A stretch of DNA of 64,000 nucleotides from the NCBI GenBank assembly GCA_020442465.1, contig JAGRJY010000086.1, forward strand, positions 1 through 64,000, in the 5' to 3' direction. This DNA comes from Lysobacterales bacterium (GTDB lineage: Bacteria; Pseudomonadota; Gammaproteobacteria; Xanthomonadales; Xanthomonadaceae). Shown piece by piece: positions 32,127 to 64,000 of this stretch (position 1 is its first letter; each line of letters opens with the position of its first letter). Under the pieces are notes generated by a model. That model was not told the origin of the DNA, searched no databases, and saw nothing but the letters and a program-made list of their open reading frames with translations. A program made the translations under genes and the position numbers.

Positions 32127-34607
<2,481 letters not shown>

Positions 34608-34674: not shown

Positions 34675-36822
34675 TCAGGCGGAGCGTCGCGCTTCGACCA
34701 CGCCCGGGACGCCAGCCATCCGCGCGAGCAGCGCGCCCAACTGCTCGTAGTCCTGCACTTTCAGGCCGAAACGGAGTTCGGCCATGCCGCGCTGCTCGTC
34801 GACGCGGCTTTCGAGCGCGAGGATGTGGGCGTTGCCGGTGCCGATGATGTTGGTCAGATCCTTGATCAACCACTTGCGGTCGAACGCGCGAACCAGCACG
34901 TCGACGGCAAAACTCTGATTCCCTGCCTTGCCCCAATCCACCGGCAGCACCCGCTCGGGATGCCGCGATGCCAGGCGTTCCATCGCGGGGCAGCCCTCGC
35001 GATGAATGCTGATGCCGCGTCCCTGGGTGAGATAGCCGACGATGGGGTCGCCAGCGACCGGCTGGCAGCAGCGTGCCAGCTGGGTCATCAGGTTGCCCAC
35101 GCCTTCGATGGTGAAGCCCTTGGCCGGCTTCGGCGGCCGGATGGTCGACGGCGGCTGGCGCGAAGTATCGGCGGGCGTCCTGGCCTCGTGCATCGCGCGC
35201 GCGACCTGGGTCGGGCCGATGTCGCCCAATGCGACCGCCACGTACAGATCGTCGAGTTTGGTCAGCCGCAGCTTGGACAGGGCAGCGGCGAGCTCGGATA
35301 CCGGCAGGCCGAGCCGCTTGAGCTCGCGCTCGAGTACCTCGCGCCCTTCGCTCAGGTTGCGCTCGAGGTCGAGCTTGTGGAACCACGCCCGCACCTTGTC
35401 CCGGGCGCGGGCGCTGGCGAGGTAGCCGTGATGCGACAGCAGCCAGTCGCGCTTGGGCGCCGAATGCTTGCCGGTCAGGATCTCGATGCGATCACCACTG
35501 CGCGGCTGGTGATGCAGCGGCACGATCCGCCCGTTGACCTTGGCACCCTGGCAGCGGTGCCCGACCTCGGTGTGCACATGGTAGGCAAAATCCAGCACCG
35601 TTCCGCCGGTAGGCAGATCGATCACCTGCCCCTGCGGCGTCAGCACGTAAATCCGGTCTTCGACCAGCTCGGTCGACAACCCGGCGGCCAGCGTCTCGTC
35701 GTCGGCCTCCTTCGCATCGAGCAGCTGGCGCATCCAGGCAATCTTGCGTTCGAATTCGGCGTCGCCGCTGCCGCCTTCCTTGTAGCGCCAGTGCGCCGCG
35801 ACGCCGAGCTCGGCATGCTGGTGCATGTCGTGGGTGCGAATCTGCACTTCCACGGTCTTTCCGCCCGGGCCCACCACCGCAGTGTGCAACGACCGGTAGT
35901 TGTTGCCCTTCGGGTGCGCGATGTAGTCGTCGAACTCCTGCGGAATCGGCGTCCACAGATTGTGCACCACGCCGAGAACCGCATAGCACGCGGCCACATC
36001 GTCGACCAGCACGCGCACGGCGCGGATGTCGTAGAGCTCGCTGAACGGCACGTCCTTGCGCTGCATCTTTTTCCAGATGCTGTAGATGTGCTTCGGCCGA
36101 CCCGCCACCTCGCCGGCGATGCCGGCGTCGGCGAGCGCCTCGCGAAGGTCCTGCTTGAACGATTCGATGAAGCGCTCGCGGTCGACGCGCCGCTCGTCCA
36201 GCATGCGCGCAATGCGCTTGTAGGTGTCTTCATGCAGGTAGCGGAAGGCAAGGTCTTCCAGCTCCCACTTGATCTGCCAGATTCCGAGCCGGTTCGCCAA
36301 CGGCGAGTGGATGTCCGTGGTCAGTCGTGCCAGGGCTTCCCGTTGGTCCGGCTCCGCACGACTGGCACTGCGCATGCGCACGAGCTGGCGGGCGAGCAGA
36401 ATCCACACCACCCGCAGGTCACGAACGATGGCCAGCAGGAGTCGCCGCAGCCCTTCGGCACGCTGACGGCCGCCGTGCTCCTCGTGCAACACCCAGACCT
36501 TTTCCGCCTGGCGCTGGCCATCCAGCAAACCGTGGACGTGCTCCGACACCGGCCCGGTGTACGACGGATCCGCACCGAGATCGAAGAGCAGGCTGGCGGC
36601 GAGGGTATCCGCGTCGGCGTTCAGCTGGTCCAGCACGACCAGGGTGTCGATCGTGCGGCCGGCCGACAGCGGCTGCCTCTGCAGGCGCTCTTCGGCCCAG
36701 GCGATCAGCGCATCCGGCAGCGCCGGTGCCCGATCGCCGCGCGAATCCGACCAGTGCGCCAGACTGGCGTCTCGGATCGGACTGGGGCGGTTCGTCGTCG
36801 TGGCGGTCACTGCGATCACCAT
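34675..36822 (-). CDS. relA: (p)ppGpp synthetase RelA
   Basis: 715-aa RelA/SpoT homologue. It makes (p)ppGpp on stalled ribosomes. Seen: a degenerate N-terminal hydrolase domain lacking the HD motif (LLFDLGADPSYTG in its place), which indicates RelA rather than SpoT. The synthetase domain has DIRAVRVLVDD, HPKGNNYRSLHTAVVG and AELGVAAHWRYKEGG. A TGS domain (VYVLTPQGQVIDLPTGGTVLDF) and C-terminal Zn-finger and ACT domains follow (LARCCQPVAGD, HREGCP). The ATG at 36822 sits inside a TGCATTATGG segment that could also act as a -10 element. If transcription starts just after it, translation may begin at a GTG a few codons in. It lies directly downstream of a strong terminator hairpin belonging to the preceding gene. 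Confidence 0.96.
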   Translation of the reverse strand: MVIAVTATTTNRPSPIRDASLAHWSDSRGDRAPALPDALIAWAEERLQRQPLSAGRTIDTLVVLDQLNADADTLAASLLFDLGADPSYTGPVSEHVHGLLDGQRQAEKVWVLHEEHGGRQRAEGLRRLLLAIVRDLRVVWILLARQLVRMRSASRAEPDQREALARLTTDIHSPLANRLGIWQIKWELEDLAFRYLHEDTYKRIARMLDERRVDRERFIESFKQDLREALADAGIAGEVAGRPKHIYSIWKKMQRKDVPFSELYDIRAVRVLVDDVAACYAVLGVVHNLWTPIPQEFDDYIAHPKGNNYRSLHTAVVGPGGKTVEVQIRTHDMHQHAELGVAAHWRYKEGGSGDAEFERKIAWMRQLLDAKEADDETLAAGLSTELVEDRIYVLTPQGQVIDLPTGGTVLDFAYHVHTEVGHRCQGAKVNGRIVPLHHQPRSGDRIEILTGKHSAPKRDWLLSHHGYLASARARDKVRAWFHKLDLERNLSEGREVLERELKRLGLPVSELAAALSKLRLTKLDDLYVAVALGDIGPTQVARAMHEARTPADTSRQPPSTIRPPKPAKGFTIEGVGNLMTQLARCCQPVAGDPIVGYLTQGRGISIHREGCPAMERLASRHPERVLPVDWGKAGNQSFAVDVLVRAFDRKWLIKDLTNIIGTGNAHILALESRVDEQRGMAELRFGLKVQDYEQLGALLARMAGVPGVVEARRSA

Positions 36823-53314: not shown

Positions 53315-54085
53315 TCAGTCTGCGTCCGGCTCTGTCTGCTGAAGGTCCAGTCGAAACTGGTCAAGCAGGGCCTGATCCGCCCGGCTCAATGCGATTTTTT
53401 CAAGCAGATCGGGCCGCCGCTGCCAGGTTCGCCCCAACGATTGCTGTCGCCGCCAGCGGGCAATCGCCTTGTGGTCACCGGAGGTCAGCACTGCCGGCAC
53501 CGTACCCAGTTCGTGCTGTTCCGGCCGGGTGAAGTGCGGGCAGTCGAGCAACCCGTCCTCGAAACTGTCCTGAGCTGCCGAGGCCGGGTCATTCAAGGCG
53601 CCCTCGACAAGCCGACCGACTGCATCGATCAGCACGCAGGCGGCAGGCTCGCCGCCGGACAAGACGTAGTCGCCGATCGAAATCTCTTCGTCGACTTCCG
53701 CGTCGAGCAATCGCTCATCGACACCTTCGTAGCGTCCACACAACAGCACCAGACGCGGACGGGATGCGAGCTCCCTCACCTTGGCCTGATCGAGCACCCG
53801 ACCCTGCGGAGACAGATAGATCGTGTGGGCAGGCCGGGGATCCGCCGCGCGAATCGCCGTCAGGGCGCGCCGCAGCGGCTCGATCAACATGACCATGCCC
53901 GGTCCACCGCCGTAGGTCCGGTCATCCACCGTGCGATGCACGTCGTCGGCGAAATCGCGCAGCTGCCACGCCTCGCAGTGCAGCAACCTGCGTCGCATCG
54001 CCCGGCCGACCACACCGATCTCGGTGAACTGCCGGATCCACTCGGGAAACAGCCCGAGCACGTCGATACGCGGCGCGGCAGACAT
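53315..54085 (-). CDS. trmD: tRNA (guanine37-N1)-methyltransferase TrmD
   Basis: 256-aa SPOUT enzyme that makes m1G37, preventing frameshifts. Seen: the trefoil-knot segments [24 protein letters not shown] and [18 protein letters not shown], plus the GGGPGMVM and LDCPHFTRP segments. Its start overlaps the rimM stop by one nucleotide (TGATG). Confidence 0.98.
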
Positions 54086-54594
54086 CAGAACTCGGGATCC
54101 CAGTCGACCACCATGCGCTCTTGCGCGAGATCGATCGATCGAATCACGTCGGGCTGCACGAACGGAATAAGCCGCTCCCGCTCGCCCTTGACCGCGACGA
54201 CGTCATTGGCGCCGGTCGCAAACAGGTGCGATACCACACCCAGAACCACGCCCTCGACGGTCTCGACCGAAAGACCCTCCAGATCGGCCCAGTAGTACTC
54301 GCCCTGGGGAAGCTTGGGCAGGGCAGATCGCTCAACCCAGATTTGTGCGCCAACCCACGACTCCGCGGCGTCCCGGTCAGCGACGTACGGAAACGTGGCG
54401 ACGAGCCCTTTGCCGTGCACGCGACAGCGCGGCCGGGACATCTGCACTTCCCGACCCCGATGGGTCACGAACCAGGTCTTGTACCGGGCCAGCGCATCAG
54501 GCGGGTCGGTGTGGGAGCGCAGCTTGAGCTGCCCCTGCACACCGAACACGCCGACGACTTCGCCCAGCAGGATGCGATCCGCAGGCGTATTCAT
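54085..54594 (-). CDS. rimM: Ribosome maturation factor RimM
   Basis: 169-aa 30S maturation factor that binds uS19. Seen: the N-terminal [20 protein letters not shown] and the PRC-barrel C-terminal domain with [17 protein letters not shown] and [14 protein letters not shown]. In the order rpsP-rimM-trmD-rplS; 61 bp after rpsP. Confidence 0.96.
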
Positions 54595-54655: not shown

Positions 54656-54904
54656 TCAGGCTGCGGCGGAAGCCTGCTTGTACAGGTCGCGGACCTTGTC
54701 GGTCATCTGCGCGCCGTGACCCAGCCAATGCTGGATGCGTGCAGTGTCGAGCTGCAGACGCGGGTCGTTGCCCGCCGCCACCGGATTGTAGAAACCCACG
54801 CGCTCGATGGCACGACCGTCGCGCTTGTTGCGCTGGTCGGTAACGATGACGTGATAGAAGGGACGCTTCTTGGCGCCGCCACGGGTCAGACGGATCTTGA
54901 CCAT
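54656..54904 (-). CDS. rpsP: 30S ribosomal protein S16
   Basis: 82-aa bS16. Seen: [20 protein letters not shown] at the N-terminus and [13 protein letters not shown], both diagnostic. It begins the rpsP-rimM-trmD-rplS operon. In related genomes ffh is often directly upstream. Here the upstream neighbour is the Pfa-like megasynthase. Confidence 0.98.
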
Positions 54905-55183: not shown

Positions 55184-58100
55184 TTACCCACCCTCCATGA
55201 CCCGAACGCACAGGCCTTCCGCCTCATAGATCCGTTGACCGTCCGCCCACAGGCTGGCCGTCGCGGTCGCATAACGGCCGAGCGCATCGGACCCGCACTC
55301 GCTGATTTCCATGGTCGTGTGCACCGTGGCGTGGTGCGGCAGCACCTGGCCGCGGTACTTCCAGCGATGCGCACGGGCCGTGCCGATCGACTGGAAGCGC
55401 GGCGCACGCAAGCCCTCGCCGGCACCGGTCTCGAGCAGGTACCACTGCAGCAACTGCAGCATGGCCTCGAGCCCCAGCGAACCGGGTTGCACCGGATCCT
55501 GGAAGAAGTGCGCCTTGAAGAACCACTCGTCGCTGTCGACCCACTTCACCGCACGCAGCTGGCCCAGTCCGGCGGCGCCGGCCCCAGGCCAGAAGCCCTC
55601 GACCCGATCGATCATGCGCAGCATCGAACCCGGCAACCGCAGCGCGGCCTCGGTCTTCGCGGCCGACAGGTCCGCGTGGCAGTTCGATGCCCGCCCCAGC
55701 AGCTCGAACTGGGTATCCAGTTTCGGCAAACCGGCTTGGGCCGCCAACGCCTCCGGAGGAAAGAAACCGAATACGGTTCGAAGTCGGTAGACCGGCTGCT
55801 CGCCCATCCGGCATTCGACCTGGAAATTCTGGATGATCATGCCGCCCATCGCCGAGACGTCGGTCAACCGCACTTCCGTGCTGATCGTGCCGCAGCCCGG
55901 CGCAAGCTCGGCCAGCACCTCGCCTTCGCCATCGAGATTGCGGAATCCCAGCTCGCCATCGACCGTAAGGGCCGAGCCGACATAGCTCGCCAGCCAGCCG
56001 CAGGGCTGCAGGGCCACTTCGAGCAGCACCGCAAACGGCATGCGGGCGCAGCCGTTCTCATCGAAGTACCACACCGACCTCGGGACGTCGTACTCGGCGA
56101 CGACGCGCGCGCCGACCCTCATTGCGCCGATCGGCCCTTCGATCTCGGCGATGCGGCTGATGAAGTGGTACGGCGGGGTCGGCAAACGCGGCACGCGACC
56201 CGGCGCATCGAAACGCCGATACATCGGCCCGAACGCTTCGCTCGGCCGACCCACCGCGCAGGCCAGCAGGGCGCGCTGGTCGAATCGGAATCCGTCCACC
56301 ACCGCGCAGGCACGATGGTCAGGCGGCAGCGGCTGCGCGCGCAACAGGTTGTCCAGCGGCCAGTCGGGGACCAGTTGCACGCCGACGCGGCGAGCGTGGA
56401 AGGCCTTGAGTCCGTCCACGGTACACAGCAGGTCGGCATACAACGTGGGCACCGGACCCTCGTGCACTTCCTCGACGAAGATCTCGGTGACCAGCTGCTT
56501 CGAGGACGGAATGACCTGACCGCGGCACTGCAGCTTGTACGGTTCGTCGGGCACCGGCTGAAAGCGCCAGCCATCGCGTTGCAGGGTGAAACCGCAGCCC
56601 GCCAGATAGAACGCCATCATCTGCAGGCAGCCCTCGAACATCAAGGTGCCGGGCATGCACGGGTCGTTCTTGAAGTGGCCGTCGAAGAACCAGAGGTCGG
56701 GACGGATATCCAGCTCGGCGCGGAGGTAGCCGCGTCCCCACGGACCGCCAGAGGCGTCGAAGTCGGTGATGCGGTCCTGCAGCAGCATGCGACCGCCATG
56801 GATCGACGGACTTCGCGTGTGCGTGCGCGCGAACGCGAAACCCTCGCCGAAGCAATCCGCCGCGCCTCCTTCGGCGAAGCGCTCCAGCGCAGCGCGATCG
56901 AATGATCGATGCGTGGTGAGTCGAACCGGCGCATCGACCCGCGCGTCGGTGCGGATTTCCTGATCTTCCGGCCGCCAGAGGCATCCAGCCGATTCGGCGA
57001 GCTCCGCGTCGGTGAAGAACCCGGCCTGGCCGGCGCGCACGCTGAGCTGGCGGCGCCCACCGTTCATGCAGTCGTAGTGGAAGAACATCAGGCGCACATC
57101 GCCCTGGGCGGCGTGGCCATCCAGGCTGATTTCGAACTCCAGGCGCTCGCCGACCTTGGGCAGATCGCCGTGGTAGGTCAGTTCGCAGCCGAGCAGGCGG
57201 TACACGCGTTCGCCGCGGTTGAGGTTGTCGATGCCCTGCCAGGAAATCAGCATCAGATCGGCCTGACCGGCTTCGATCATCACGCCGGCAGGCATGTAGC
57301 CATGGTGCAGATACCAATCCTGGGACCCGACGTCCGTTTCGGTCCAGATGCATCCCTTGCCAAGCTTGCCCGCTTCGCCCTCGATGCCCACCACGCGGTC
57401 GGCGAGCAAGAGCGGCGGCTCGGGCATGCGTACCTGCCGGATGAAGTGATCCTGCCCGGCAAACTGCGGCCCGTAGATCTCCGAGATCCGCCCACTGGCG
57501 TGGACTTCGAGCTGGGCGCGGTCGAGCCGCGGGCCGGGTCTCGGCGAAGCGTCGCGTTTCTGCCCGACTTCCCGATCGGCAGCGAACGCAGGTTCCGAAC
57601 CCTCGGCTGAGACCACCAAGGGTGTCGCGGGCTCGCTCGGCACGTGATTGGCGCTGGCCGCCGTTGCAGACACCGAAGGCAACGGCGGAACAGGGCGCAG
57701 CAGGGGCGCAACGGCTGGCGCAGCTGGCGGCACGAAGGCGGGCGGCGCGGGCATGGAACGCACTTCGCCCACCGTTCCACCGACTCCTGCCGCGCGCGCC
57801 AGACTCTGCAGAGCCGACTGTCGGAACGCGAGGAACTGCTGCTGCGCTCGCGCGCTCTCTTCGAGGAACCGGGCATGCAAGACGGACACCTCGCCGAGCC
57901 AGTCGCCAGCGCGAGGTGCTGAAACGGGCGCAGTCACGGCTGCTGCGATCGCAGCCGGAAGCGCCGCGGCTTCGTGCTCGCTGCTCCGGGCAGCGTGGAC
58001 CGCAGCCGGCATCGCCGGGCCGCGCGGACACGGTTGATTCGACGCTGCGGGCCGGTCCACTTCGGCGCGCCGGCTGAACTGCGATTCGGCAAGCAGCGAA

Positions 58101-61100
58101 GGCAGCTTCGGCGCCGGGCGCATGCGCTGGACACCGGACGGGATTGCGCGCGCCTTGGGCAGCACCACCGCCGGCGGATGCGCCGGCAGACGCAGCAGGC
58201 GATCGCTGCGTTCCGCCCGTCGCGCGGGCTGCAGCCGCTCCATCAGTGCGGCATCGTCAACGGGTACACCCGCAGCGATCAGGGAAGCGACGACGCAAAG
58301 CAAGTCTTCGAGGTCCTGATTGCGGCGGTCGAGGCTGACGACCAGCGCTTCGCGCTCGCCCAACGCATCGCGGATCGCCCGCGCATAGGTGCCTCCCGGA
58401 CCATGCTCGATGAACACGCGCACACCGTCTTCCCAGGCACGCAGAATGGTCGGGCGCACGTCGAGCGTGGTGACGGCCTGCTGCAGCAGCGCGTCGGCGC
58501 AGCGCTTCGAATCGGGCTCGTAGGAGCCTCCAAACGCATTCGAGTAGACGCGCCCCGTTCGCGGCATCGTGCTCGGCCGGGTATGCAATTCCCTCCAAGC
58601 ATCACGCGCTTCGAGCACCTCGGGCACATGTGCGGCAAGGGCGTAGCCCAGCTTGAGACAGCGCTGCGCACCGAGCTGTTCGACGACGCGAGCACACGCG
58701 GACGATTCGCCGGCGATCAGGCTGTCCTGGTCGCTGTTGATGATCGCCAGATGCACACGTGGCTCGGTGGCGATCGCCGCGCGCACCTCGTCCAGCGGCG
58801 CCAGCACGGTCCAGCTCGCCCAGTCGGCCGAAGCCCGGCGGTCGCAACCGGCGCTGCCCGATGCACGACAGACTGACTCACGACTGACTGACTCACGACT
58901 GGTTGATTCTCCCGAGCCTGATTCACCCCACGCGCGCGCCACCGCCTCAAATTCTCCGCCGAGCTCTCGATCCATCAGCCCGGACGCATCCATGTCGGCG
59001 ATCAAGGCGTCGGGATCGCTCCACACGCCGGACCCGAACAAGGCGTTGGTCTCACCGGAGGAGTAACCCAGCCAGGCATCGGCGCGCAGACCCAGCACCC
59101 GCTCCGAGAGCTCGACGTGGATCTGCGACAGGGCACTGGCCGCCTGCAGTTGCTCGGATGCCGTCGGCGAGAAGGCACCGCCGCGATAGCACACGTCCAG
59201 CGCGACCGCGAGCTTCCTGCTGCGCGCCGCCACGTGGTCCACGAGCTCGGGCAGGGCGTGCACCAGGGCGCGCCCCATGCCGGCGTAGGCGGCACCCGCC
59301 CCGGCAAAGGCGAACCCGATCGCGCCGCCGATCGGCTTGTCACGGAACTGGATGTTCTGGCCGGCCGGCATGCCGTCGCGCAGGTGCGCCAGCGCGCGAT
59401 CGCGCGTTGCCGGAAGGTCGCCCTCCTTGCACACCAGCACCAGGCGCGCAGGGCCCTCGCGGCCTTCCTTGCCTGCGATCAGCGCTTCGACCACCGCCTC
59501 GCGATCCGCGCCAGCGAAGCAGCGCAGTCGTGGTGGTGGCGACTCGGCCTGGCGCAGCGCCCCCGCCATCTCATCCAGACGTGCTCCGACTTCGCCATGC
59601 GAAACAGCGCACGTCCGACCGCTTGCTGCCAACCACGGCTCCCCGCCCGCATGTCGGCGGTGATGCAGACTCAACGCGGCCAGCACCACTTCAAGCAGAC
59701 CCAGTGCAGCGGGCGCATGCGCAAACCGCGCGCGCACCGTCGCCGCATGCCTGAAAGGCTCGGCTTCTGCGGCGGGCGAAGGCTGCGAGGCGCTCACGTT
59801 GATGCGCGCGTAGATCCGGTCACCCGCTTTTTCCGCGTCGGGCAGCCGTTTCACCACCAGGGCAACGGCTGCGTCGCCCGGCTTTGTGTCCATCGCGCTG
59901 CGCTGGACCGGCTCGCAGGCCATGTCGACAGCGCCGACAAGGGCGGCATCGATGTCGCCCGCGCGCAGGGCGTCGGCGGCGACCTGCAGCGCGCGCAGTC
60001 CGGATGCCGCACCGGCTTGCAGCGTGAAGGCTGGTCCCGCCAGATCCAGTTGGGAGCTCAACCGGTTCGCCGGAATATTCGGCATGCAACCGAGCACGGC
60101 GGCAGACTCCAGCGCCGCCACGACGCCGTCACGCGCTGCGCGCAGTGCGGCCTCGTCAGCGCCTTCGACCTGAAGCCGCCAGCGAAGTCCGTATCGGGCG
60201 ACTTCGCCGTCGGGCTCCATGCCGATCAGCACCGCCGTACGTTCGCGCACCAGGCCGGAGGTTTCGGCCATCGCCTCGCGCGCTGCTTCGAGCATGGCGA
60301 GCTGCTGCGGCAGGGTCTGCTCGAGATCGCGCGGCGGCAGGCGCAGGCCCGCCAGATCGACCTCGACATCCTGCATGCGCGCTTCGCCGTCGGCATTGAG
60401 CACCGATGCGTCGGAGAACCAGGCTTCGGTCAGCGCGGTGCGATCCGCGAGCGAGGCCACTCGAGCGCCGATTCCGACGACGACGAGATCCTCGTCCGCG
60501 CGCGACTGAGGCAGTGGCGCGGCGATTGAGGGGTCGTCCTCGGACACGATCAGGTGCGCGTTGTTGCCGCCGAAGCCAAACGCCGACACCGCAGCAGTGC
60601 GTGGACCTGCTTTCGGCCAGTCTTCCAGTGCGCCGAGCAAACGGAATGGCGTATTCGCCAAGGCGGGATTGGCGCGCTCGACGTGCAGGGTCGGTGCACG
60701 CTGACCGTGACGCATCGCTTCAAGCGTCTTGATCAGTCCCGCCGCGCCGGCGGTGGTGATCAGGTGACCAAGATTGGACTTCAGTGAGCCGATCGGCAAT
60801 GCGTTGCATTCCGCGTACACGCTGGCGGTGCTGCGCAGTTCGGTGGCATCGCCGACCGGCGTACCGGTGGCATGGCATTCGATCATCGAGACCTGCTCAG
60901 GATCGACGCCGCTCACCGCGAGCGCCTGCTGCATCGCCCGCTGCTGGCCAGCCTCATCGGGCGCCAACAGGCCTTTTCCGCGCCCATCGTTCGACAGACC
61001 GATTCCGCGGATGACGCCGAGAATCCGGTCGCCGCCCCGTCGCGCATCGTCCAGACGCTTGAGCAGGAACATGGCCGCGCCCTCGGCCGGCACCAGACCG

Positions 61101-61840
61101 TCGGCCGCTTGATCGAACGGCCGGGAGCGACCCGTGCGACTGAGCGCACTCAGGGCGCAGAATCCGACGTGCAGGAAGAGGTCGTCGGCGCGCTGCACCG
61201 CGCCGGCCAGCATGGCGTCGGCGCGCCCGGCATGCAGTGCATCGCAGGCCAACTTGATCGCATACAGCGAGCTGGCGCAGGCCGCATCCAGGCAAAAGCT
61301 CCCAGCGCCGAGACCGAGCGCCTGCGCCACCACCTCAGCGGTGCCCGAACTCATGTAGCGGTTGCGCGTGTCGCCGCCTCGCTCACGCCGCCACACGCGC
61401 GCGGCATAGTCCGCCATCGCTTCGGAAGGAAAACCGAGATTGCCGAATACGGCACCGACCCGCGCGACATCCATCGCCAGACCTTGCCCCAGCGCTTCAC
61501 GCGCGCAATGCAAGACCCAGTGCACCAGCGGGTCCAAACCGCCCAACTCATCCGCAGGCAAGGCGAATCCGTCCGGATTCCAGACCGACTCGAAGCCCGT
61601 CACGTAGCCGCCGCGGTCGGACCAGCTTCGATCCGCGTCGTCGTCGTGCGGCGCACGCAGTCCGTCGTCTCCCGCCGGCAGGCGCCAACGTCCTTCCGGC
61701 ACGCGACCCAGCAGATCGCGTCCTTGCGCGACGGCTTCCCACAGCTCGGCCGGAGACAGGGCGCCGGGCAGGACACAGGCCTGCCCGACGATCGCGATCG
61801 GGGCGAATGTCGCGGCTGGCTTGGTTGCGGATGGGGTCAT
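55184..61840 (-). CDS. Pfa-type polyunsaturated lipid synthase subunit (KS-CLF-AT-DH-DH)
   Basis: 2218-aa iterative fatty acid/polyketide synthase. Seen in order: KS (about 10-440) with Cys188 in LDAACASSLYA and His in ECHATGTPVGD and SNLGHLITTAG. Next a KS-like chain length factor (about 447-720), where QAGAASGLRAL has Ala in place of the active Cys. Then an acyltransferase (about 838-1160) with the serine elbow GYSSGE near 926. A Pro/Ala-rich linker (about 1200-1430) follows. Two FabA-like double-hotdog dehydratases close the protein (about 1440-1870 and 1880-2218), with HFKNDPCMPGTL and HFFQDPVQPGSL. There is no ACP and no acyltransferase of the AGPAT type. Known: marine PfaC is KS-CLF-DH-DH; the added AT matches the myxobacterial Pfa3 layout. 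The product (omega-3 PUFA or another secondary lipid) is not predictable by eye. ATGA overlap with the next gene upstream. Confidence 0.9.
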   Translation of the reverse strand: MTPSATKPAATFAPIAIVGQACVLPGALSPAELWEAVAQGRDLLGRVPEGRWRLPAGDDGLRAPHDDDADRSWSDRGGYVTGFESVWNPDGFALPADELGGLDPLVHWVLHCAREALGQGLAMDVARVGAVFGNLGFPSEAMADYAARVWRRERGGDTRNRYMSSGTAEVVAQALGLGAGSFCLDAACASSLYAIKLACDALHAGRADAMLAGAVQRADDLFLHVGFCALSALSRTGRSRPFDQAADGLVPAEGAAMFLLKRLDDARRGGDRILGVIRGIGLSNDGRGKGLLAPDEAGQQRAMQQALAVSGVDPEQVSMIECHATGTPVGDATELRSTASVYAECNALPIGSLKSNLGHLITTAGAAGLIKTLEAMRHGQRAPTLHVERANPALANTPFRLLGALEDWPKAGPRTAAVSAFGFGGNNAHLIVSEDDPSIAAPLPQSRADEDLVVVGIGARVASLADRTALTEAWFSDASVLNADGEARMQDVEVDLAGLRLPPRDLEQTLPQQLAMLEAAREAMAETSGLVRERTAVLIGMEPDGEVARYGLRWRLQVEGADEAALRAARDGVVAALESAAVLGCMPNIPANRLSSQLDLAGPAFTLQAGAASGLRALQVAADALRAGDIDAALVGAVDMACEPVQRSAMDTKPGDAAVALVVKRLPDAEKAGDRIYARINVSASQPSPAAEAEPFRHAATVRARFAHAPAALGLLEVVLAALSLHHRRHAGGEPWLAASGRTCAVSHGEVGARLDEMAGALRQAESPPPRLRCFAGADREAVVEALIAGKEGREGPARLVLVCKEGDLPATRDRALAHLRDGMPAGQNIQFRDKPIGGAIGFAFAGAGAAYAGMGRALVHALPELVDHVAARSRKLAVALDVCYRGGAFSPTASEQLQAASALSQIHVELSERVLGLRADAWLGYSSGETNALFGSGVWSDPDALIADMDASGLMDRELGGEFEAVARAWGESGSGESTSRESVSRESVCRASGSAGCDRRASADWASWTVLAPLDEVRAAIATEPRVHLAIINSDQDSLIAGESSACARVVEQLGAQRCLKLGYALAAHVPEVLEARDAWRELHTRPSTMPRTGRVYSNAFGGSYEPDSKRCADALLQQAVTTLDVRPTILRAWEDGVRVFIEHGPGGTYARAIRDALGEREALVVSLDRRNQDLEDLLCVVASLIAAGVPVDDAALMERLQPARRAERSDRLLRLPAHPPAVVLPKARAIPSGVQRMRPAPKLPSLLAESQFSRRAEVDRPAASNQPCPRGPAMPAAVHAARSSEHEAAALPAAIAAAVTAPVSAPRAGDWLGEVSVLHARFLEESARAQQQFLAFRQSALQSLARAAGVGGTVGEVRSMPAPPAFVPPAAPAVAPLLRPVPPLPSVSATAASANHVPSEPATPLVVSAEGSEPAFAADREVGQKRDASPRPGPRLDRAQLEVHASGRISEIYGPQFAGQDHFIRQVRMPEPPLLLADRVVGIEGEAGKLGKGCIWTETDVGSQDWYLHHGYMPAGVMIEAGQADLMLISWQGIDNLNRGERVYRLLGCELTYHGDLPKVGERLEFEISLDGHAAQGDVRLMFFHYDCMNGGRRQLSVRAGQAGFFTDAELAESAGCLWRPEDQEIRTDARVDAPVRLTTHRSFDRAALERFAEGGAADCFGEGFAFARTHTRSPSIHGGRMLLQDRITDFDASGGPWGRGYLRAELDIRPDLWFFDGHFKNDPCMPGTLMFEGCLQMMAFYLAGCGFTLQRDGWRFQPVPDEPYKLQCRGQVIPSSKQLVTEIFVEEVHEGPVPTLYADLLCTVDGLKAFHARRVGVQLVPDWPLDNLLRAQPLPPDHRACAVVDGFRFDQRALLACAVGRPSEAFGPMYRRFDAPGRVPRLPTPPYHFISRIAEIEGPIGAMRVGARVVAEYDVPRSVWYFDENGCARMPFAVLLEVALQPCGWLASYVGSALTVDGELGFRNLDGEGEVLAELAPGCGTISTEVRLTDVSAMGGMIIQNFQVECRMGEQPVYRLRTVFGFFPPEALAAQAGLPKLDTQFELLGRASNCHADLSAAKTEAALRLPGSMLRMIDRVEGFWPGAGAAGLGQLRAVKWVDSDEWFFKAHFFQDPVQPGSLGLEAMLQLLQWYLLETGAGEGLRAPRFQSIGTARAHRWKYRGQVLPHHATVHTTMEISECGSDALGRYATATASLWADGQRIYEAEGLCVRVMEGG
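58871..58911. repeat. Degenerate 11-15-nt tandem repeat inside the AT domain
   Basis: Units of the form GACTGACTGACTCAC occur about three times (58871-58881, 58882-58896 and a decayed copy to 58911). In frame they encode a Ser/Arg/Glu-rich run (SRESVSRESV) that sits between the two halves of the acyltransferase domain, where no conserved AT sequence is expected. Probably a slippage-driven loop insertion that keeps the reading frame. Confidence 0.65.
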
Positions 61841-64000
61841 GCGCGCGGCAGCGCGTGATTCTGCACTCCAAGCAACTCGGCGAAACGACGGCCTTCCCGG
61901 TCGGTGAACAGGATGTCCGTCGTGATCGAGGTGTCGCTCACCTTGCGGCGGTAGGCCTGGGCATGGACGGGACCATCGACGGGCGCCTCCGTGTAGGAAC
62001 GCAACTCGGCGATCGAGGTCGGCAGATTGGGCCCGCCGAGCATGCGCTGGCCGTACAGCACGGCCAGCTGCAATCCGCCATCCAGCGCCGCGACATCCAG
62101 CTGCCACGGGCCGAAGGTCCAGCCCGCGGCATCCACACCGCGCAGGGTGGCGCCGACGCCCTGGTCGGAGATGCCGCGCACCGATTCAATCAGCTCGAAC
62201 TTGTCGCGATGAAACAGCAGGTTCTGGTACAGCGGCTCGCCCTGCCACGGATCGAGCGGAAGCTCCGGCATGCCCTGCTCGCCTGGCGCGTTCGCGGCAT
62301 GCAGCTCTGCGCGCGCGGTGTAGTAGGCGGTTCCGTGCGCATCCTTGACCACCAGCTGCAGCGAGGACTCGGCGCCATTCGCAACGGGCGTCGCTTCGAT
62401 CAAGAAGCGATCTCCTTCGCCCTCGAAGCCACCCAGCCGAATGCCCTTCAGCACCTTGAGGTCGCGCAGCGACGAGAGCACCAGGCCCGGGCGGAAGCTG
62501 CGGGCTGCGCGCGACAGCCACTCGGCCACCAGCACGACCGGCACCACCGGCATGCCATTCACCGCGTGCCCATTCAAGTAGTCGTGACTGTCCCGATGCA
62601 CCCGCACTTCCAGCGTGTGCACGCGCTGCTTGGCACCGTCGAACAGCAACGCCTCAGCCCTGGGCGCCCCCCCGAGCACCAGCTCGACGGTGTCGCTGGC
62701 GTCGTTCATCTCATCGACGAACATGCGCGCGCCGACCTCGAGCGGAATCATCGGCACACCCAACTCGGCGAAGCGCTTCTTCAGCTGCGGGCTGACCATA
62801 CCGGCTTCCCACGGCCCCCAGCCGAGTGATTTCACGCGCAGTTCGGGTCGACGACGCGCCTCGGCCTGCATGACCTTGGCCAGCACTTCATTGGCCATCG
62901 CATAGTCCGCCTGGCCGGTGTTGCCGCAACGTGCCGACACCGAGGAAAACACAGCCAGCAGTTTCAGCGGATCGTCGGAGGTGGCCTGGAGCAGTGCACG
63001 CAGCCCATCGATCTTGGTGTCGAACACCCGGTCGAACTGAGCGTCTGTCTTCTCGGCGATGCGCTTGTCGGCCAACACGCCGGCGGCATGCACCACTCCG
63101 CGAATCGGGCCCCAGTCCCTGCGCACCAGGTCGAGGACACTCGACAGCGCTTCGGCATCGGCCACGTCCACCGATTCATAGCGTGCCTCGGCGCCCGCCT
63201 TGCGCAAGGCGTCCATCGTGGCGGCCAACTCGCGATTGGCGAGAATCGCATTGACACGGCTCTGAAGTTCCGCGGGGGTCGACGGCTTGGACTTGCCCGT
63301 TTCCTTCAGCAGCGCCGCTTTCAGCGCCGGCTCGTCGGCGGCGGCATGACAGGAGGCCGGCTCGTTCTCCAACTCGGTGCGACCAAGCAGAACGAACCGG
63401 AGTTTCACATCGGCTGCCCAAGCCTTGAGGCAAGCCGCGGTCACACCGCGCCCTCCGCCGGACACGACCACGACATCGCCCTGTTCCATGACCGACTTCG
63501 CGGCGGTAGCGCGCACCGAAACGCTCAGCAGACTGCGGCGCTGACCCTGAGCACCCAACGCGACTTCGATCTCGCCGCCGCCCAGCAGCAGCTCATCCGC
63601 CAGCGCCGCGAACACGGCCTTGTCGTCGCGCTGGCCGCGCTCGATGTCGATTGCCTTGACCACCGCCTTGGGCCACTCCAGCGCCGCGGTCTTGATCAGC
63701 GCTGGCAAGCCGGCCGACCAGGCGCGCAAGGCATCACCGTCCCCAAGGCCGAAGCTGCCGCCCGTGTCCTGAACGGTGACGAAGAGCACCCGCTGGTGAT
63801 CGGCATGTTTCGCCAGCTGCCGGGCGAGTGCAAAGGCCTCACGATTGACTGTCTTCGCGGCATCGATGTCCGCCGCATCGCGCAGACCGCCGAGAAAGAT
63901 GCAGGCGTTCGCCGATGCCGGCGGCGCGTCACTGGCCTGCGCGTTGACACCGCGCAGGCGCAGCGCATCGACCAGCAAGGCATTGCGCGCCGGATCGCCG
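61837..64000 (-). CDS. Pfa-type synthase subunit, C-terminal part (KR and PKS-type DH), truncated by window end
   Basis: The 720 C-terminal residues of a larger megasynthase; the reading frame runs off the window edge with no start. Seen: a ketoreductase with VVVSGGGRGVTAACL (NADPH loop) near visible residue 177 and the catalytic Ser-Tyr-Asn set in FSSVSARCGNTGQADYAMAN. From about 455 there is a PKS-type double-hotdog dehydratase with HAVNGMPVVP (HxxxGxxxxP) and DGGLQLA (DxxxQ). These are the last domains of PfaA/Pfa2-type proteins; KS, AT and tandem ACPs would be expected upstream, outside the window. The stop overlaps the start of the KS-CLF-AT-DH-DH gene (ATGA), so both are made from one transcript. 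An enoyl reductase (PfaD/Pfa1) is not in view. Confidence 0.9.
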   Translation of the reverse strand, partial: GDPARNALLVDALRLRGVNAQASDAPPASANACIFLGGLRDAADIDAAKTVNREAFALARQLAKHADHQRVLFVTVQDTGGSFGLGDGDALRAWSAGLPALIKTAALEWPKAVVKAIDIERGQRDDKAVFAALADELLLGGGEIEVALGAQGQRRSLLSVSVRATAAKSVMEQGDVVVVSGGGRGVTAACLKAWAADVKLRFVLLGRTELENEPASCHAAADEPALKAALLKETGKSKPSTPAELQSRVNAILANRELAATMDALRKAGAEARYESVDVADAEALSSVLDLVRRDWGPIRGVVHAAGVLADKRIAEKTDAQFDRVFDTKIDGLRALLQATSDDPLKLLAVFSSVSARCGNTGQADYAMANEVLAKVMQAEARRRPELRVKSLGWGPWEAGMVSPQLKKRFAELGVPMIPLEVGARMFVDEMNDASDTVELVLGGAPRAEALLFDGAKQRVHTLEVRVHRDSHDYLNGHAVNGMPVVPVVLVAEWLSRAARSFRPGLVLSSLRDLKVLKGIRLGGFEGEGDRFLIEATPVANGAESSLQLVVKDAHGTAYYTARAELHAANAPGEQGMPELPLDPWQGEPLYQNLLFHRDKFELIESVRGISDQGVGATLRGVDAAGWTFGPWQLDVAALDGGLQLAVLYGQRMLGGPNLPTSIAELRSYTEAPVDGPVHAQAYRRKVSDTSITTDILFTDREGRRFAELLGVQNHALPRA

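Follow-up and report, generated by a model that had tools for sequence, protein, structure and literature searches.

The window, a stretch of 64,000 nucleotides forming positions 1-64000 of a 106-kb contig, reaches into a standalone pfaD-pfaA-pfaC operon, whose PfaA and PfaD we completed from sequence read past the window edge. It encodes what is probably a working member of the Pfa (PUFA, 'secondary lipid') family, an iterative type I fatty acid/polyketide synthase with a long-chain PUFA as its likely product. The cluster belongs to a known, little-described branch of this family and is not new in kind.

All genes of the cluster are encoded on the reverse strand. The gene pfaC (55184..61840, 2218 aa) is complete, and its ATG overlaps the pfaA stop codon by 4 bp (ATGA). 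A 2307-aa ORF starting at 62107 was rejected for pfaC because of its overlong start. The 3' part of pfaA that lies in the window (61837..64000) was identified by profile match and motifs, and Pfam finds in it a KR and a PKS-type DH, as the sequence-only reading had described. The entire gene (61837-68646, 2269 aa) extends beyond the window and encodes KS-MAT-4xACP-KR-PKS-type DH. It is preceded, outside the window, by the enoyl reductase gene pfaD (68748-70391, 547 aa), a subtilase gene (72814-75747) and ffh (76260-77645), all on the same strand. On the other side, rpsP (S16; 54656..54904, reverse strand, TIGR00002) directly adjoins the insert, and rimM (54085-54594, TIGR02273) and trmD (53315-54085, TIGR00088) lie beyond it. 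With the subtilase gene, ffh, rpsP, rimM and trmD as neighbours, no modular PKS or NRPS genes were found next to the cluster. The housekeeping neighbours had been called gammaproteobacterial, and the host chromosome is genuinely that of a member of the Lysobacterales. Elsewhere in the window, a RelA/SpoT gene (34675-36822) adjoins a gene (32127-34607) whose 826-aa product has a Ser/Thr protein kinase domain at its N terminus.

PfaC contains the KS-CLF pair and the FabA-type dehydratases (DHs) expected of this protein in Pfa synthases, according to Pfam, alignment and motifs. The ketosynthase (KS) domain (60503..61807, this and the following domains on the reverse strand; PF00109/PF02801) has Cys188 and both histidines. 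The chain length factor (CLF) domain (59798..60487), found as a second ketoacyl-synt stretch by Pfam and by alignment, lacks the active-site cysteine and shows QAGAASG at its position. It is followed by an acyltransferase (AT) domain (58223..59347, PF00698) with a GYSSG serine and an AAH histidine, and by two FabA-type dehydratase regions assigned by PF07977 and motif, the first with GHFKNDPCMPG (56348..57517) and the second with AHFFQDPVQPG (55196..56287). The Pfam scan returned three FabA stretches, and the motif check found both FabA-type His motifs. Pfam and motifs therefore agree with the KS-CLF-AT-DH-DH order, the intact KS cysteine and AT serine and the cysteine-free CLF that had been read from the letters.

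The remaining proteins are also typical of the family. PfaA scored 1666 bits against TIGR02813, the omega-3 PfaA family (cut-off 1010), and PfaD scored 613 bits against TIGR02814 (cut-off 449). PfaA has the MAT motifs GHSFG and AFH, four tandem ACPs that are 76-84% alike, the KR Tyr and the HxxxGxxxxP and DxxxQ motifs of the PKS-type DH. The gene set and the catalytic residues of the synthase are in place. The sequence-only reading had proposed extending the sequence upstream to count ACPs and to find an enoyl reductase and a phosphopantetheinyl transferase (PPTase). The four ACPs and the PfaD enoyl reductase were indeed located past the window edge; the PPTase was absent from the cluster, with a candidate of the Sfp type (240 aa; contig C118, L034:1363-2085) found elsewhere in the assembly, above the Pfam cut-off and above no NCBIfam cut-off. 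Only one PF01648 protein, of Sfp type, was retrieved from the assembly; AcpS was not found, which may reflect the 89% completeness of the assembly.

Judging from its predicted structure, the AT of PfaC is a true acyltransferase with a PfaB-like fold. Acyl_transf_1 matched it above the Pfam cut-off (1.2e-10), and the PfaB family profile matched it weakly. The domain was modelled with AlphaFold from a 44-row alignment (pLDDT 92.9). It is regarded as a real acyltransferase because the model best matched, among solved structures, the Shewanella baltica PfaB crystal structure (9ry8; TMq 0.82), with a Z of 39.3 across 341 aligned residues that exceeds the value of the next row by 4.5. Bacterial PfaB is a terminal acyltransferase in which a Tyr replaces the His of malonyl transferases in the serine motif (PMC12895367), and the GYSSG of the window AT carries the same Tyr. 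By analogy, we infer that the fused AT may act as a terminal acyltransferase like PfaB. No separate PfaB gene was detected in the assembly, where PfaB-family matches fell solely inside the cluster. A Gammaproteobacteria-wide PfaB search returned mostly long fused frames and no clear stand-alone marine PfaB. The marine pfaABCDE clusters of Shewanella and Moritella share the reaction set, and PfaB its fold, with the window cluster, but they differ in gene order, have a distant KS and carry the AT on a separate PfaB.

No AGPAT domain (PF01553) was found by Pfam in the window PfaC, which terminates 3 residues past the aligned DH2 end. This absence is real, since the same scan detects PF01553 in two positive controls, Minicystis Pfa3 and the Acidobacteriota homologue L108. 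The missing AGPAT had been taken to set this synthase off from the myxobacterial form; the domain is indeed absent here, but its absence is common to every Lysobacterales member examined and also to many other lineages. In the other Lysobacterales PfaC proteins (12/12 in the concatenated tree), tails past DH2 are only 1-15 aa long. Across 80 homologous loci, PfaC proteins fell into three groups: those without a tail (36 loci, a few of which end at contig ends), those with a tail of 290-430 aa without detected AGPAT, and those whose tails contain AGPAT. AGPAT fusion has been described as a feature that only the synthases of terrestrial myxobacteria possess. We detected it fused to PfaC in Acidobacteriota, Desulfobacterales, Paenibacillus and others (L045, L108, L041, L060, L037, L047, L054 and L053). 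The Acidobacteriota clusters L108 and L045 form the nearest outgroup, with PfaC 57% identical, but their PfaC is longer and has a C-terminal AGPAT. As the nearest outgroups carry the domain, loss is the simplest reading, and AGPAT was probably lost at the base of the Lysobacterales clade, the direction of change not being fixed by the PfaC tree alone.

An identical cluster common to all Lysobacterales, a prospect raised by the sequence-only reading, is not what the order shows. Of 299 genomes sampled evenly across the order, 11 carry the cluster, a patchy distribution; the window genome is one of them and the sole carrier found among the roughly 80 genomes sampled from its family. The nine clusters retrieved from the ten other carriers all aligned end to end, with PfaC identities of 56-63%. 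In the genus, which we take to be Pseudomarimonas, two of four genomes have the cluster, the other carrier being taken as Pseudomarimonas arenosa (contig NZ_JACYTR010000008.1). The clusters of Tahibacter and P. arenosa share with the window the pfaD-pfaA-pfaC order, the KS-CLF-AT-DH-DH layout, the lack of AGPAT and a common clade, and differ in sequence (PfaC about 54-63% identical to the window). In one genome of family f3 (G003, L031:2975-9663), pfaA consists of two overlapping frames of 1064 and 1212 aa, either a split gene or a frameshift. The under-described lineage suggested earlier corresponds to a Lysobacterales branch that is known but little described.

Beyond the order, the 80 homologous loci came from a scan of named genomes and belong to Pseudomonadota, Myxococcota, Actinomycetota, Acidobacteriota, Gemmatimonadota, Bacteroidota, Bacillota and other phyla. 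Nearly all are KS-CLF-AT-DH-DH, mostly in the order pfaD-pfaA-pfaC. Streptomyces and mycobacteria also have this layout, and a homologue on an Azospirillum lipoferum plasmid is 48% identical. A fused KS-CLF-AT-DH2 was already present in types C and D of Shulse & Allen 2011 (PMC3098273). Compared by description, these types (Desulfatibacillum, Psychroflexus) have the same fused pfaBC but another gene order or a split pfaA. The Minicystis cluster was published in 2021 as syntenic with those of Tahibacter aquaticus, Azospirillum and Streptomyces (PMC8436480). Since the layout occurs across so many phyla, the domain order is no myxobacterial signature, and tying it to myxobacterial Pfa3 in particular, as the sequence-only reading did, was wrong or overstated.

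Trees were built under the LG+G4 model; some rows were uneven in composition, and Aetherobacter and Sorangium were not represented. The concatenated PfaC tree places the window within the Lysobacterales clade (support 100/100) as sister to P. arenosa (99/98); Acidobacteriota adjoin this clade, and Minicystis stands apart. In the KS tree, the window groups with Lysobacterales and two Acidobacteriota, far from Moritella, in line with the earlier placement outside marine pfaC; the marine reference is here a single KS (Moritella 6riw) on a long branch whose exact place is unsure. Nothing was found in favour of a common marine pfaC whose AT region had been mis-scored, and as far as this one marine reference allows, that reading is refuted: the distant Moritella KS shares no more than 43% identity with any row, the AT model matches PfaB, and the assembly has PfaB-family matches solely within the cluster. 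A horizontal transfer from a myxobacterium is very improbable. Myxobacterial Pfa1-Pfa2-Pfa3 (Aetherobacter, Minicystis rosea) has the same gene order, an AT between CLF and DH and a PfaA/Pfa2 that ends in a PKS-type DH, and Minicystis has nearly the same domain order (PMC8436480), but the window cluster lacks AGPAT and the Minicystis DH4 and belongs to a separate clade, Aetherobacter being compared by description. Forcing the window together with three myxobacterial rows (Minicystis and relatives) was rejected by the AU test (p about 3e-97), and per-domain identities to Minicystis are mostly lower than those to Tahibacter and Pseudomarimonas.

The transfer suggested by the sequence-only reading is supported only as a move of the cluster inside the order or into it from outside, and nothing points to a donor among the myxobacteria. 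The genome of P. arenosa keeps ffh and rpsP 158 bp apart, in one group with rimM, trmD and htpG, and has its cluster at another chromosomal site. In the window genome, about 21.4 kb (54905 to 76259) separate ffh from rpsP, comprising pfaD-pfaA-pfaC and the subtilase gene, whose product carries fn3, PPC and P-domain. Because the cluster is patchy in the order and splits the conserved ffh-rpsP pair, which P. arenosa has unbroken, it appears to have moved. Movement within the order is likely, as PfaD is no nearer to P. arenosa (64.5%) than to a genome of family f12 (G291, 66.0%), whereas for Ffh the identity is 86% with P. arenosa and 75% with another f12 genome. Vertical inheritance from a Pseudomarimonas ancestor with later relocation, instead of separate acquisition from another Lysobacterales lineage, is a plausible if doubtful account: it agrees with the sister position to P. 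arenosa PfaC, but sits poorly with these PfaD distances, the differing chromosomal sites and the two genus members without the cluster. Base composition gave no sign of recent transfer (G+C about 0.68 in the cluster and 0.67 in the contig). In flanking-gene comparisons with other Lysobacterales clusters, only the pfa region was conserved among the matches listed, many of which were shadow ORFs. In another genome of the genus (G663), rpsP is likewise not within 1.5 kb of ffh, and the spot may be variable.

We infer the catalytic order, the release route and the product by comparison with characterised relatives. The ACPs would be activated by the Sfp-type PPTase encoded elsewhere, after which the PfaA MAT would load malonyl units onto them. 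Condensation would be carried out by the PfaA KS and the KS-CLF pair of PfaC. Reduction would fall to the KR, and dehydration or isomerisation to two kinds of DH, the PKS-type one in PfaA and the FabA-type ones in PfaC; PfaD would complete the reduction in some of the cycles. Once complete, the chain would be passed on by the PfaB-like AT and not by a fused AGPAT, so its placement in phospholipids would need the ordinary acyltransferases of the host. With the assembly 89% complete, another AT or AGPAT is possibly encoded elsewhere.

A long-chain PUFA is our best guess for the product, whose chain length and omega class are not readable from sequence. In myxobacteria, the product profile depends on the Pfa2 PKS-type DH, the Pfa3 FabA-type DHs and DH4 (PMC6731297). 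The window set, with a PKS-type DH, FabA-type DHs and no DH4, resembles the DPA/DHA type of Aetherobacter fasciculatus minus AGPAT. Hybrid lipid clusters have modular PKS/NRPS neighbours (PMC13291983), and the standalone position of this cluster favours a lipid that is either free or part of the membrane. A specialised product (hydroxy-, keto- or saturated very long chain), as made by heterocyst glycolipid (Hgl) or phenolic lipid synthases, is a less likely alternative. In its favour, most types in PMC3098273 have unknown products and the papers searched gave no PUFA report for Lysobacterales carriers, with no fatty-acid data for Pseudomarimonas and no PUFA shown in Tahibacter. Against it stand the full PUFA-type domain set with FabA-type dehydratases, intact PKS-type DH and separate ER, the PfaA score far above the omega-3 PfaA cut-off, and the lack in Hgl clusters of the FabA-type DHs of PfaC (PMC3098273).

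The Lysobacterales have, as an established but patchy trait, a full PUFA-type synthase with the AT fused and AGPAT missing. A single gain or loss does not account for the distribution of AGPAT across the family, a point of relevance for product release in these enzymes. We tentatively propose that the cluster represents a Lysobacterales-wide, sporadically kept PUFA lineage that dropped AGPAT, releases its product through the PfaB-like AT and makes a true omega-3 or omega-6 PUFA. If so, PUFA production would extend to a gammaproteobacterial order not known for it, and could be tested directly in the cultured carriers P. arenosa and Tahibacter.
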